A model generated the notes under the pieces. That model was not told the origin of the DNA, ran no database searches, and saw only the letters and a program-made list of their open reading frames with translations. Positions 46,140 to 52,523 of a stretch of 64,000 nt of DNA are shown in pieces. The DNA is taken from positions 868,001 to 932,000 of the forward strand of contig JASBRY010000009.1 of assembly GCA_030149165.1 (NCBI GenBank), read 5' to 3'. Position 1 is the stretch's first letter; each line of letters begins with the position of its first letter. This DNA is from Phycisphaerales bacterium. GTDB taxonomy: Bacteria > Planctomycetota > Phycisphaerae > Phycisphaerales > UBA1924. Made by a program: the position numbers and the translations under genes.

Positions 46140-47108
46140 TGGATGTCCCTTGTCTGGTTGCTAGTGCGTTGCGGTGTGACGACTTGCGTGCGCGCCGTTG
46201 GATGCTTTGGTGTGTCATAGAGACGCGCGTTGCCCCATGATGTGTGCTTCTATACGCACCTCAAAGCAGAGTGTATGCAGCGCTCTGAAATTGAGCAGCG
46301 AAGAATTCTGATCCGTATTTGAGCGATCACGCGCGTGTGCATGTGGAAAACTTCAATGCGCTGCGAGGATGTACTGAAAATCTTTGTTCGGTGGATGTAC
46401 TTTATCTGGATTCTCCGCAACATCTGGGGGCGCAGCGTTAAGCGTTTGCATTCTCATAGCTTTGGCCTTGATGCGATCGCGTCTTATGGCAAACAGCAAG
46501 TGTGAAGAGTTGAAACGAAATCAGTTTTTTGTCCGAATTCCCTCCGAAGTGGTTCCACAACACCTTGTGGCTCGCTATCATCAAGGCCCATCGCATCCGA
46601 TATATTGGGGTGTGACAGGAAAAACTGAAGATTTCCATCGTGGGAAGTCGAGAACTGGAGAGGACTTGGAATCAACCGACAGGATATCCACAGGACCCAC
46701 ATCCGACGGATCTTTGAAGTTGAACCCAATCTGAACACGACTCGGCAGCACGCTCACGGAAGTTTGGAAAATATTCAGTTTCTGTTTTTGTGAAGGTCGC
46801 TCGATTCCCTTTCGACCACTCGCGAAGACGGCACAGAGCACGCAGCGTCCCGGTGGGCAACCAGGGGTCTGCACGCTCAACCAGTGAGGCGTCCCCTTCG
46901 TTCCGGGGCACCTGAAAACATGCACCACGCTTGAGTGGTTAGGGATGATCCCCTAGCCGCAGAGAGTTGTCGTGCGTCATCTCGTTCTTGGATCGTGTGT
47001 GGACACGCGGCTCAGGGACACTTTCGGAGGCCGGGACATCGGAAGTCCCATCGAGATTGATTCAGTGAGACTGATTCAGTTTCGACAGACAAGACGGAGC
47101 AGAGCGTT
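46140..47108. other. Long intergenic region upstream of dcd
   Basis: 969 bp between divergent genes. Several open frames exist (for example 46384-46734 plus), but none shows family features or a ribosome binding site I trust. The stretch 46383-46800 is AT-richer and featureless to me. From about 46845 the sequence is rich in short perfect hairpins (separate entry). A further hairpin, CGTGT/ACACG, lies at 46994-47007, and GATTCAGTGAGACTGATTCAG at 47058-47078 contains a short direct repeat. Confidence 0.5.
46846..46956 (+). ncRNA. Candidate structured RNA or leader upstream of dcd
   Basis: Consecutive hairpins readable by eye: GGT/ACC with flanking CC/GG at 46849-46866; ACGCTCA (46873-46879) with TGAG and CGT (46885-46892, one bulged G); CCCC/GGGG around a TTCG-containing loop at 46893-46908; ACCAC (46924-46928) with GTGGT (46935-46939); TAGGG (46940-46944) with CCCTA (46951-46955). 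They lie 150-260 nt before dcd on the same strand. No known riboswitch consensus was recognised. Could be a leader or an independent RNA; strand is inferred from the downstream genes. Confidence 0.3.
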
Positions 47109-47765: not shown

Positions 47766-50700
47766 ATGAAAATCACCCGCAGATTCACCAAGGAAGGTAT
47801 GGACCCGTTTGCATCCACGGAGTGGACGACGCGAGCGAGTCGGATCACGAACCCGGACGGTTCGATTGTCTTTGAGATGCCTGATGCTGAGGTCCCGGTT
47901 GGGTTCTCGCAGCTCGCGACCGACATCATGGTGTCGAAATACTTCCGCAAAGCGGGGGTGCCTCAGCTTGAAGAGAAGTTCGCGCTCCCAGGACAGAGTG
48001 AGCAGCTCCGCGACGAGGACGGCTCGGTCACGATGGGACCTGAACGCTCGGCGCGTCAGGTGATCCATCGTCTCGCGGGATGCTGGCGTCACTGGGGCGA
48101 GACGCACAACTACTTCGATACCACTGAGGATGCGCAGGCGTTCTACGACGAGCTGGTGTACATGCTGGTCCACCAGATGTGCGCTCCCAACTCGCCTCAG
48201 TGGTTCAACACTGGTCTCAACTGGGCGTACGGCATCAGCGGTCCCGCGCAAGGTCACTGGGTTGTCAATCCCGAGACCGGACTCCCGGAACTCGCGGATG
48301 ATGCGTACACGCACCCACAACCCCACGCGTGCTTTATCCAGTCGATCGATGACTCGCTCGTCAATGAGGGCGGGATCATGGACCTTTGGATGCGCGAGGC
48401 GCGTCTGTTTAAGTACGGCTCGGGAACGGGCACCAACTTCTCGAACCTCCGCGCTGAGAACGAACTGCTCTCAGGGGGCGGCAAGTCGTCGGGTCTGATG
48501 TCGTGGTTGAAGATCGGCGATCGTGCCGCGGGCGCGATCAAGAGTGGGGGAACCACTCGACGCGCCGCGAAGATGGTGTGTCTGGATATGGATCACCCCG
48601 ACATCGAGTCCTTCGTGAACTGGAAGGTCCGTGAGGAGATCAAGGTCGCGGCGCTCGTTGAGGGGCTCAAAGCAATCCAGAACGAGAAGGCATCGGATCT
48701 GGACAGCGAAACCGTCGGCGAGACCGCGGCGCGTCTGGGGCTCAAGCTGGATTACGACTTCAACGGCGAGGCGTACGGCACGGTCGCGGGTCAGAACTCG
48801 AACAACTCGGTCCGGATTCCCGATGCGTTCTTTGATGCCGTGGATGCGGGTGATGCGTGGCAGACGACTTACCGCACGAGCGGCGAGGTCGCGAGCACGG
48901 TCGATGCGCGGAAGCTGTGGGACGATGTCGCGTACGCTGCGTGGCGCTGTGCGGACCCTGGGGTTCAGTACGATACGACGATCAATGCGTGGCACACCTG
49001 TCCGAACGCGGGGATGATCAACGCATCGAATCCGTGTAGTGAGTACATGTTCCTCGACAACACAGCATGCAACCTCGCTTCTTTGAATGTCATGAAGTTC
49101 TACGACGCGAATACACGCGAGTTCGACATCGAACGCTTTGAGCACGGCGTCGATCTGTGGACGATGGTCCTCGAGATCTCGGTCCTCATGGCGGCGTTCC
49201 CCTCCAAGGAAATCGCGGAACTGAGCTACAAGTACCGCACGACTGGACTCGGATACGCGAACCTCGGCGCGATGCTGATGCAAGCGGGGATCCCATACGA
49301 CTCGGAAGCGGGCACGGCGATCTGTGGTTGCTTGACCGCGATCCTGACGGGTCGTTCGTACAGAATGTCGGCGATGATGGCGCGTGAGCATGGGCCGTTC
49401 CCTGGATACGAACCAGAGCGTGACAACATGCTTCGTGTGATGCGCAACCACCGGCGCGCCGCGATGGGCGTGGCGCGTGACAGCGGCGAGTACGAAGAAC
49501 TCCGCATCACTCCGGTCCCGATCGATCACGATCTCATCCGCGATCACGGCGTGCCACTGGGGAACGCGATGGAGCTGCTGCACCACGCGACGACCGCGTG
49601 GGACGATGCGCTGGATCTCGGAGAGCTCTACGGCTACCGCAACGCACAGACGACGGTCATTGCGCCGACAGGGACCATTGGTCTGCTGATGGATTGTGAT
49701 ACCACAGGTGTTGAGCCGGACTTCGCGCTTGTGAAGTTCAAGAAGCTCGCGGGTGGCGGGTACTTTAAGATCGCAAATGCGTCGATCGATCCGGCACTGG
49801 AAGCACTCGGATACGACGAGACGCAACGCCGTGAGATGATCCAGTACATCCTTGGTACGCTGAACCTGCATGTCCCGATGCCATCGGATATCGAGGACAG
49901 CGTGGGTGTCTCGCTCGCGGCGTGGCTGACCGATCATGGTCTTGATGATGACGATCTGCAGAAGATCACCGATGCGCTCCCAAGCGTGTTCGAGATCGGG
50001 TTCGCGTTCAGCGCGTGGGCGCTGGGCGATGACACACTGCGTCACCTCGGCGTTGATCCAGAAGAAGCGAAGGCGGATCCGAGCTTCAATGCACTCAAGT
50101 TCCTTGGTCTGACAGGCAAGCAGATTGCTGAGTTGAATGAGCTCGTTTGTGGCACACAGACGATCGAAGGGGCTCCGCACCTCAAGGATGAGCACCTCGC
50201 GGTCTTCGATTGTGCAAGCACCTGCGGCGCCAAGGGCACGCGTTCGATCTCAGCGGGTGGTCACATCCGGATGATGGCGGCGGCGCAGCCATTCATCTCT
50301 GGAGCGATCTCCAAGACGATCAACCTGCCGCATGATGCGTCGGTGAAAGACATCCAGGATGCGTACCGGTTGTCGTGGGAACTGGGTCTCAAAGCGAACG
50401 CGCTGTATCGCGACGGCTGCAAGCTGAGTCAGCCGCTCAATGCGAAGAGCGATACAGAGACCGAGCTTGATGACGATGTGGTCATCGACGAGCTCGATCA
50501 GGCGGCGGCGCTTGATGAGATCGCGACGGATGTCGCGGAGCTTGCTGAGGCCGCGGGCGATGAGAATGTGCGTGTGGTGGTGAAGAAGGAGGTCGAGATC
50601 GTGCATCGTCCGATGCGTCGTCGTCTTCCGGAAACACGGAGATCACTGACGCACAAGTTCAACATCGCGGGTCACGAGGGGTACCTGACTGTCGGGTGCT

Positions 50701-51293
50701 ACGAGGACGGGAAGCCGGGCGAGTTGTTCATTACCATGGCGAAAGAAGGCTCGACCATCGGTGGGCTCATGGATTCGCTCGGGACCTCGACTTCTGTGGC
50801 GCTGCAGTACGGCGTGCCGCTCGAGTCGCTCGTCCGCAAGTTCACGCACCAGCGCTTTGAACCTGCGGGGATGACGACGAATCGTGATATCCCGTTTGCG
50901 AAATCACTGGTGGATTACATCTTCCGCTGGCTCGGGATGGAGTTCATCGATGGCTATCGCGAAGCGAATATCCCGGCTCGTGCGAATCCTGAGCCCAAGG
51001 AACAGGCCGACAAGCCAGATCCGGTTGTGAGACGGATCCCGGTGCAGGACATCGAACCCAAGGCGAAGGAAAGCAAACCTGAACCAACGATCATCAAAGC
51101 GGAACTGACAGAGACTCAGGTCGCCGCGAAGACGAGCGATGGGACACAGGTTGATGCACGCAGCGCGACGCTCTCAATGGCGCTCGATGCGGCGGGTGAT
51201 GCTCCGCCTTGCGACGTGTGCGGCACGATCACGGTTCGCAGCGGGACTTGTTACAAGTGTCTCAACTGCGGTGCTTCGATGGGCTGCAGCTGA
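47766..51293 (+). CDS. nrdJ: Vitamin B12-dependent (class II) ribonucleotide reductase
   Basis: Adenosylcobalamin-dependent NDP reductase, 1175 residues. Key parts: the N-terminal NSPQWFNTGLNW, the GSGTGTNFSNLRAENELLSGGG loop, NPCSEYMFLDNTACNLASLN with an active-site Cys and nearby residues, PTGTIGLLMDCDTTGVEPDFAL, and the C-terminal Cys cluster CDVCG...CYKCLNCGASMGC that resembles a zinc ribbon and supplies reducing thiols. No N-terminal ATP cone is evident. An internal Asp/Glu-rich linker lies near 895-940. No intein. The 84-bp gap upstream is too short for a cobalamin riboswitch. Confidence 0.96.
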   Translation: MKITRRFTKEGMDPFASTEWTTRASRITNPDGSIVFEMPDAEVPVGFSQLATDIMVSKYFRKAGVPQLEEKFALPGQSEQLRDEDGSVTMGPERSARQVIHRLAGCWRHWGETHNYFDTTEDAQAFYDELVYMLVHQMCAPNSPQWFNTGLNWAYGISGPAQGHWVVNPETGLPELADDAYTHPQPHACFIQSIDDSLVNEGGIMDLWMREARLFKYGSGTGTNFSNLRAENELLSGGGKSSGLMSWLKIGDRAAGAIKSGGTTRRAAKMVCLDMDHPDIESFVNWKVREEIKVAALVEGLKAIQNEKASDLDSETVGETAARLGLKLDYDFNGEAYGTVAGQNSNNSVRIPDAFFDAVDAGDAWQTTYRTSGEVASTVDARKLWDDVAYAAWRCADPGVQYDTTINAWHTCPNAGMINASNPCSEYMFLDNTACNLASLNVMKFYDANTREFDIERFEHGVDLWTMVLEISVLMAAFPSKEIAELSYKYRTTGLGYANLGAMLMQAGIPYDSEAGTAICGCLTAILTGRSYRMSAMMAREHGPFPGYEPERDNMLRVMRNHRRAAMGVARDSGEYEELRITPVPIDHDLIRDHGVPLGNAMELLHHATTAWDDALDLGELYGYRNAQTTVIAPTGTIGLLMDCDTTGVEPDFALVKFKKLAGGGYFKIANASIDPALEALGYDETQRREMIQYILGTLNLHVPMPSDIEDSVGVSLAAWLTDHGLDDDDLQKITDALPSVFEIGFAFSAWALGDDTLRHLGVDPEEAKADPSFNALKFLGLTGKQIAELNELVCGTQTIEGAPHLKDEHLAVFDCASTCGAKGTRSISAGGHIRMMAAAQPFISGAISKTINLPHDASVKDIQDAYRLSWELGLKANALYRDGCKLSQPLNAKSDTETELDDDVVIDELDQAAALDEIATDVAELAEAAGDENVRVVVKKEVEIVHRPMRRRLPETRRSLTHKFNIAGHEGYLTVGCYEDGKPGELFITMAKEGSTIGGLMDSLGTSTSVALQYGVPLESLVRKFTHQRFEPAGMTTNRDIPFAKSLVDYIFRWLGMEFIDGYREANIPARANPEPKEQADKPDPVVRRIPVQDIEPKAKESKPEPTIIKAELTETQVAAKTSDGTQVDARSATLSMALDAAGDAPPCDVCGTITVRSGTCYKCLNCGASMGCS

Positions 51294-51337
51294 GCAGGAT
51301 TGTTTAGGAAATGAAATCAAGGGTTGTGTTCGCGCCC

Positions 51338-51558
51338 GGTTCACGGTTGATAACGCGCGGCGGTCAGGATGACTGGTCGCATTCAGATAGGGATGGTCAG
51401 CAATCGAATGGAAATGAATGCTGCGGGTGTTGGTCACGGAGAGATCGGCACTCGAACCCCGGCAGACGGACGGCTCTTTGGAGCCATGGAGTAGTTGAAG
51501 CCGGATTGAGCTGATGAACTCGCAATCTCTGACCGCCGCGCGTTGTCAGCCGTGAACC
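51338..51558. repeat. Imperfect inverted repeat, 30-nt arms
   Basis: Arms 51338-51367 and 51529-51558 match in 28 of 30 positions when one is reverse-complemented. The arms begin with GGTTCACGG and end with GGCGGTCAG on the left side. The two differences place G opposite T of the left arm, which stay paired as G-U in plus-strand RNA. No target-site duplication is seen outside the arms. Confidence 0.85.
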
Positions 51559-51629
51559 ACCAAGCTTGTCTCTCTCCCAGAGACAGTGTCGTCCGGGCAA
51601 TCCCTGCCTCCAGCCCGGAGACACCCTTA

Positions 51630-51668
51630 CCCCCGGGCAAGCCCACCACGGCCCGGGGGTTTCTTGTT
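51630..51668 (+). terminator. Strong Rho-independent terminator
   Basis: CCCCCGGGC (51630-51638) pairs with GCCCGGGGG (51651-51659) over a 12-nt loop, followed by TTTCTTGTT. It closes the region after nrdJ and the candidate RNA, and precedes the CPBP gene by about 50 bp. Confidence 0.88.
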
Positions 51669-51713: not shown

Positions 51714-52523
51714 ATGCATGAACGCGATGAACTAGATCAGTCGATCCGATGGGATATCGTGGTGGTGATCGCGTTGATATCGCTCGTTGGGGTGTTGGGA
51801 TTCAAGCTGCTGTGGATGATTGAGGGATACCGAGCCTCGATATTGAAACTCTCTCCCGATGTGATTCTGTCGATTCATCCGATCACACGGATGGTTTTGG
51901 TGGGGGTAGGGGTGCTGATCGTCTATCGGATGGCAAAGCGCGGACAGCAGAAGACAATGGGGCTGATGATCGGTTGGGGAAATGCGATCAAAGGGATCGG
52001 GATCGGGCTTACCTGTTCGCTTCCAATGTTGCTGCTGGGATTACTGAGTGATGAGTTTTCTCTTTACTGGCGCCAGATCGTCCACGGCTCGATCATGCCT
52101 GGACTGACGGAAGAGGTCTTCTATCGAGCGTTCATGTTCGGATTGCTCGTGCAAGTCGCACGCTGTCCGATGTGGACCACGGCGATTGTCACTGGGATCG
52201 TGTTCGGACTGGCGCATGTGGATATCACACCTGAAGAGGGGCAGACGATCATTGGTCAGCTCGGGTTCTGGATCGCGATGATCGCAGCGGGTGGGTTCAT
52301 GTATGCATGGATCTACTACGCATCGAACTGGAATCTATGGGTGGTGATCGCACTGCACGCCGGGATGAATCTGTGGTGGGATATGTTTGATCTGACGAGC
52401 ACGCCTTTGGGAGGATGGGGCGCGACGGGTGCTCGTGTTCTGAGTGTTGGATTGGTCGTGCTGTTTGTGATGTATTTCAAGGTGCTGGGATCACCTCAGC
52501 GATCTACCATCAAGCGTGAGTAA
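51714..52523 (+). CDS. CPBP family intramembrane glutamic protease
   Basis: 269-residue multi-span membrane protein (about eight segments) with the ABI/CAAX-protease motifs: TEEVFYRAF (E-E-x3-R) near residue 130, FGLAHVDITP with the motif 2 His, and HAGMNLWWD with the motif 3 His/Asn. Family members cleave within membranes or modify prenylated or peptide substrates; no bacteriocin genes are around. Its stop overlaps the following gene's GTG by 8 nt. Confidence 0.87.
   Translation: MHERDELDQSIRWDIVVVIALISLVGVLGFKLLWMIEGYRASILKLSPDVILSIHPITRMVLVGVGVLIVYRMAKRGQQKTMGLMIGWGNAIKGIGIGLTCSLPMLLLGLLSDEFSLYWRQIVHGSIMPGLTEEVFYRAFMFGLLVQVARCPMWTTAIVTGIVFGLAHVDITPEEGQTIIGQLGFWIAMIAAGGFMYAWIYYASNWNLWVVIALHAGMNLWWDMFDLTSTPLGGWGATGARVLSVGLVVLFVMYFKVLGSPQRSTIKRE

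Follow-up and report, generated by a model that had tools for sequence, protein, structure and literature searches.

The window analysed here, a 64,000-nt stretch of a Phycisphaerales genome, contains the gene for a class II ribonucleotide reductase, nrdJ, followed directly by a structured element. The element starts right after the nrdJ stop codon, and its 3' end, a G+C hairpin with a U tail, lies about 45 nt upstream of the next gene. The genes and parts of the locus are as follows, in window coordinates:

47766-51293, plus strand: nrdJ, class II (B12-dependent) ribonucleotide reductase (Pfam PF02867, PF08471 and PF12637), directly upstream of the element
51338-51367, plus strand: 5' arm of the closing helix P1, defined by complementarity and covariation
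51389-51393, plus strand: AGGGA, a further ANGGA, not conserved in the alignment
51395-51425, plus strand: hairpin H1, with conserved ANGGA site 1 (ATGGA, 51408-51412)
51425-51453, plus strand: hairpin H2, GGGTGTTGGTC-ACGGAGA-GATCGGCACTC, with conserved ANGGA site 2 (ACGGA, 51436-51440)
51466-51470, plus strand: ACGGA, a further ANGGA, shared with the nearest relative only
51472-51490, plus strand: hairpin H3 (GGCTC..GAGCC) and conserved ANGGA site 3 (ATGGA, 51486-51490)
51529-51558, plus strand: 3' arm of the closing helix P1, defined by complementarity and covariation
51567-51585, plus strand: 3' hairpin TGTCTCT-CTCCC-AGAGACA, from the predicted fold; sequence not conserved
51586-51624, plus strand: 3' hairpin with the C-rich loop CCCTGCCTCCA, kept in near relatives
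51629-51668, plus strand: intrinsic terminator, a hairpin with a U-rich tail and the conserved loop CCCACCAC
51714-52523, plus strand: CPBP / Rce1-like protease gene (PF02517), the downstream neighbour

The P1 arms, of 30 nt each and 161 nt apart, are 93% complementary, and both imperfect positions form G-U pairs on the plus strand. These arms and their strand-specific wobble pairs had been described in the original prediction, and we recovered them together with the inner helices, the two 3' hairpins and the strong terminator that it had listed. The plus strand also folds better relative to its shuffles, with an energy of -179.4 kcal/mol (z -7.5) compared with -156 kcal/mol (z -4.5) for the minus strand; for both strands, none of 100 shuffles was as stable as the native sequence. 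In the minimum-energy fold of this sequence alone, only site 2 is fully open. Regarding coding potential, none of the three longest reading frames that cross the region matched Pfam, and 1-nt indels between relatives break the frames, so a small protein was rejected, in line with the earlier view that no convincing reading frame exists. The absence of a recognised RNA class was likewise borne out by Rfam, which gave no relevant match to the element at gathering or permissive thresholds (E up to 10). We also rejected tmRNA as its identity, since tmRNA was found elsewhere in the genome, and a tRNA-like T-arm on the minus strand, where ARAGORN finds none. Apart from the element, a sub-threshold match at G000:C10:52069-52244 spans the full 6S RNA model, scoring 34.5 bits where the cut-off is 46.4, and is probably a divergent 6S RNA.

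A DNA search showed that the element is single copy in its own genome, the other significant matches being its own arms against each other, and 19 members of the genus, its own genome included, carry the same element directly 3' of nrdJ. An alignment of eight genomes has 73 consensus pairs, of which 27 are altered in both partners and still pair (0/500 shuffles), and this signal was destroyed by sliding the partners by 1-3 columns. The changes on both sides include 10 of the 19 consensus pairs of P1, in which 98% of cells are paired, 7 of the 11 pairs of the H2 stem, and 5 of the 7 consensus pairs of the penultimate 3' hairpin (51586-51624). Together, these results rule out a mobile element, and likewise a 3' UTR that lacks structure. 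The original prediction had left room for a miniature inverted-repeat transposable element, as the long near-perfect arms might suggest, but with a single copy in the search for dispersed ones, a fixed syntenic location across the genus and compensatory changes within the arms, we consider this explanation extremely improbable. The element is a conserved RNA and not a mobile element. The main proposal of the original prediction, a large structured RNA that is possibly the 3' UTR of nrdJ, is upheld by the covariation, the synteny, the plus-strand terminator and the lack of dispersed copies. Of all its segments, the terminator (51629-51668) is matched the most widely within the genus. A covariance model of the core gave nine matches, all of them behind nrdJ and confined to this genus and a single sister genus; hence, continuity across the order rests on synteny and motif and not on alignable homology.

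In the alignment of 16 genomes of the genus, the columns of the core that never change cluster around three A-N-GGA motifs, in which N varies. At site 1, in H1 (A-[C/T]-GGA), the GGA is invariant and the A is present at 90% or more, and at site 2, in H2 (A-[C/T]-GGA), and site 3, after H3 (A-[A/C/T]-GGA), both the A and the GGA are invariant. Hairpin loops hold two of the conserved sites; the third is next to a stem. Besides, four relatives (L012, L013, L016 and L017) have rebuilt the H1 stem with other sequence around the same loop, such as GGCGGGC/GCCCGCC in L012 and GATGAA/TTCATC in L013. It seems, then, that the long P1 arms are a genus-level scaffold and that the functional part is the loops inside. 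The ANGGA count in this sequence alone has a P of about 0.03. By NMR, the ANGGAN hexaloop of a high-affinity RsmE site is contacted at the A and the GGA (PMC7652899), and Campylobacter jejuni CsrA pulls down AAGGA within hairpin loops (PMC4894983). The ANGGA loops of the element are thus of the type bound by CsrA, and we strongly infer CsrA binding.

Outside the genus, we analyzed the nrdJ-downstream regions of 39 genomes from the same family or order, comparing 256 patterns of the form XNYZW with dinucleotide shuffles as the baseline. ANGGA ranked first of the 256 (135 occurrences against 58.5 expected, z 10.5) among these genomes, which share ancestry and whose region 3' ends were set by script and a few by hand. 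Within the genus it ranked second (93 against 47.5 expected), and CNGGA, GNGGA and TNGGA were at or below expectation in nrdJ-downstream regions. Inside hairpin loops, ANGGA was found 37 times outside the genus (11.4 expected, z 9.0) and 24 times within it (7.7 expected, z 6.2), and the eight control motifs counted in hairpin loops all stayed below z 3. Among the outside-genus examples are GAGG-ACGGAT-CCTC (L070) and a region with five small ANGGA hairpins in 196 nt (L121). A set of 64 loci from named genomes, partly overlapping the 39-region set, gave 209 ANGGA against 98.4. When the order was divided by family, f1, f2, f4 and f5 were enriched (0/300 shuffles each), f3, with one genome, gave 9/300, and f6 showed no ANGGA enrichment; several Phycisphaerales have short nrdJ-downstream regions without ANGGA sites. 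Outside the genus, both sequence and shape diverge while ANGGA persists downstream of nrdJ. According to these sequence comparisons, many Phycisphaerales appear to encode a structured RNA bearing CsrA sites just after nrdJ. In several order families (L101-L104, L106, L118, L119, L122, L124 and L127), a block GGCGAGTGGATGGA(C/T)CC with ANGGA recurs after nrdJ, and this block may correspond to hairpin H1 throughout the order.

The original prediction had offered a regulator of the B12-dependent reductase as one option. This is unsupported as the main role, since the order's common feature, ANGGA in hairpin loops, indicates CsrA rather than B12. As for controls, no enrichment was detected in four csrA-negative outgroup genomes, few and distant (5 ANGGA against 5.8), in eight outgroup genomes with one canonical CsrA only (6 against 7.6), or in three multi-csrA outgroups including Isosphaeraceae (3 against 2.9). 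In the element's own genome, ANGGA ranked 77th of 256 in 94 other 3' intergenic regions, drawn from 464 kb with crude gene calls; none of them had five or more, and its density was 4.4 per kb compared with 13.7 in the element. The 374 nt before the dCTP deaminase gene (window 46734-47108) contain four ANGGA, which equals the maximum among the 94 control regions; this stretch, next to a second gene of nucleotide metabolism, may be a CsrA target. We found csrA in all 61 order genomes searched, usually in two copies, so the order offers no contrast for a dependence of the enrichment on csrA. A dependence on the second, divergent CsrA paralogue was rejected as a rule, since f5, with mostly one CsrA, is enriched too.

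The element also presents C-rich single strands, with CCUCC, noted by eye, before the terminator loop and CCCACC inside it (window 51586-51660, CCCACCAC). Possible pairing partners of these strands are Shine-Dalgarno sequences and the GGA loops. One could argue for another kind of structured sRNA or 3' UTR, whose GGA and C-rich loops would not bind CsrA but engage in RNA-RNA pairing, either among themselves or with Shine-Dalgarno sequences. The C-rich motifs are indeed conserved too, CCCACC being kept in 31 of the 39 regions outside the genus (10.6 expected), and CCCACC was absent from every other terminator loop in a sample of about 90 terminator-like sites of the own genome. Pairing, however, would not favour an A two bases before GGA with the intervening base left free, nor would it deplete CNGGA, GNGGA and TNGGA, and we regard this explanation as quite improbable.

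To place the CsrA-type sites in their genomic context, we looked at csrA and its neighbours. The own genome has two csrA copies (L228:821-1207 and L229; C6:335723 and C5:11601), one of them within a fliW-csrA-flagellin cluster, whose fliW and flagellin were named from sequence alone. This copy keeps the VHR motif, the arginine of which (residue 44 in E. coli) binds RNA. The usual pair in Phycisphaerales is a canonical CsrA in fliW-csrA-flagellin and a divergent CsrA (MLVITRREGEEVVIGDPKNPIGVVRIASVKGERVRVAFDFPRDVEIHRREI) near a NifU-like gene. The start codon of the own flagellin is preceded by a hairpin, GCAATC-ACGGAG-GATTGC, which encloses the Shine-Dalgarno sequence. Its loop begins as that of H2 does (GGTC-ACGGAGA-GATC), and the two share their closing U-C/G-A pairs. 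All 20 csrA-linked flagellin starts detected by script have ANGGA at the Shine-Dalgarno sequence, in the form CAATC-A[A/C]GGAG-GATTG or a close variant (L228:1245-1268, L071-L099). This near-invariant hairpin is a strong candidate for a CsrA operator across the order. Because of its presence at 20 of 20 starts, CsrA very likely represses flagellin at the ANGGA hairpin in Phycisphaerales, by analogy with Bacillus and Campylobacter, and hairpins of this type occur several times over in the nrdJ element. A search of the own genome with the pattern TCACGGAGN{0,3}GAT gave 11 places, compared with 0 for the pattern read backwards, and some of these may be further CsrA sites.

We therefore favour, with a probability of roughly 0.6, that the element is a CsrA-binding decoy RNA that comes from the 3'-terminal part of the nrdJ transcript and titrates CsrA. 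The decoy would be either the nrdJ 3' UTR in its entirety or an sRNA that is released from it by processing or has its start close by. Together, the P1 helix and the terminator would form a stable scaffold presenting A-N-GGA in or beside hairpin loops, and CsrA dimers docking on these sites would lower the level of free CsrA. CsrA would thereby be withdrawn from mRNAs with their Shine-Dalgarno sequence in a similar hairpin, above all that of flagellin, so that transcription of nrdJ would raise the translation of flagellin and other CsrA targets. We know of no link between nrdJ transcription and motility. The direction of transcription, the structure, the CsrA-type sites, the presence of csrA and the matching flagellin target are supported by computation. 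CsrA binding and its stoichiometry, titration, derepression, the link to nrdJ expression and the state of the RNA, free or attached to nrdJ, are the steps of the decoy model that we infer. The capacity per RNA would be small, because only three sites are conserved here; E. coli CsrB has 22 GGA (PMC7652899).

Regarding the origin of the RNA, a search for sigma-70-like promoters found none for the element, so an independent sRNA is unsupported. In several relatives, besides, the element starts so near nrdJ that a promoter would fall inside the coding region, and both observations favour an origin from the 3' UTR. They also bear on a cis-acting role, by which CsrA bound to the nrdJ 3' UTR would set the decay or the yield of nrdJ mRNA without titration. 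Such a role would suit an element that lies directly after nrdJ at every locus examined, within tens of nt of the stop codon, with no promoter found and with few sites, like an mRNA target. We nevertheless hold it to be unlikely: known CsrA targets are mostly 5' leaders (PMC7652899), the several spaced hairpins, the stable scaffold and the element's own terminator are more sponge-like, and its counterparts in some relatives have up to 8 ANGGA.

The decoy reading can be set against known systems. CsrB/CsrC and RsmX/RsmY/RsmZ of Gammaproteobacteria share with the element ANGGA in hairpin loops, an intrinsic terminator, a comparable length and csrA in the genome. As in CsrA-sequestering sRNAs, several ANGGA motifs are displayed in loops and CsrA is encoded in the same genome; of the marks of a discrete transcript, the terminator is present and a promoter of the sigma-70-like type, the one searched for, was not found. 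In contrast to the gammaproteobacterial RNAs, the element has no similarity to the Rfam CsrB, CsrC or Rsm families, has only three conserved sites and a long closing helix, and lies after nrdJ with no promoter detected. Its host carries fliW, whereas Gammaproteobacteria are without it (PMC4682653, PMC7652899). The C. jejuni flaA mRNA, which titrates CsrA together with FliW (PMC4894983), is also a coding-transcript-linked RNA with AAGGA-type hairpin loops in a FliW and CsrA background, but there the main CsrA target itself carries the site, in its 5' leader, and here we find a separate multi-hairpin structure 3' of an unrelated metabolic gene. The hag leader and the CsrA-FliW-Hag circuit of B. 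subtilis have in common with our locus that fliW, csrA and flagellin are linked and that an ANGGA hairpin covers the Shine-Dalgarno sequence of flagellin, but no sponge RNA has been described for that circuit (PMC7366521). Judged by its motif content, the element resembles CsrB/RsmZ, outside those sequence families and in a FliW-bearing phylum.

Published surveys assign RNA sponges to Gammaproteobacteria and FliW to most other CsrA-bearing phyla, Planctomycetes included (PMC4682653), and describe sRNA mimicry and FliW as alternative, so far even mutually exclusive, controls of CsrA (PMC7366521). According to a 2020 review, it is yet to be determined whether any species uses FliW and sRNAs jointly (PMC7652899), and we found no CsrA sponge described for Planctomycetota in the open-access published papers searched. 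With a specific locus and specific bases in genomes that carry fliW, the question of FliW plus a sponge becomes testable. The search for a protein's binding motif in syntenic intergenic regions also offers a route to such RNAs when sequence similarity fails. If the element is a decoy, Phycisphaerales would control CsrA by both an RNA sponge and FliW, a combination that according to the reviews is undemonstrated in any species, and CsrA would be tied to an unexpected partner, ribonucleotide reductase. Tentatively, we suggest that Phycisphaerales may oppose CsrA in two ways at once, through FliW and through a dedicated sponge RNA at the tail of the ribonucleotide reductase transcript. This arrangement would couple dNTP synthesis to flagellin translation, and the RNA would have kept its function while nearly all of its sequence and architecture turned over.
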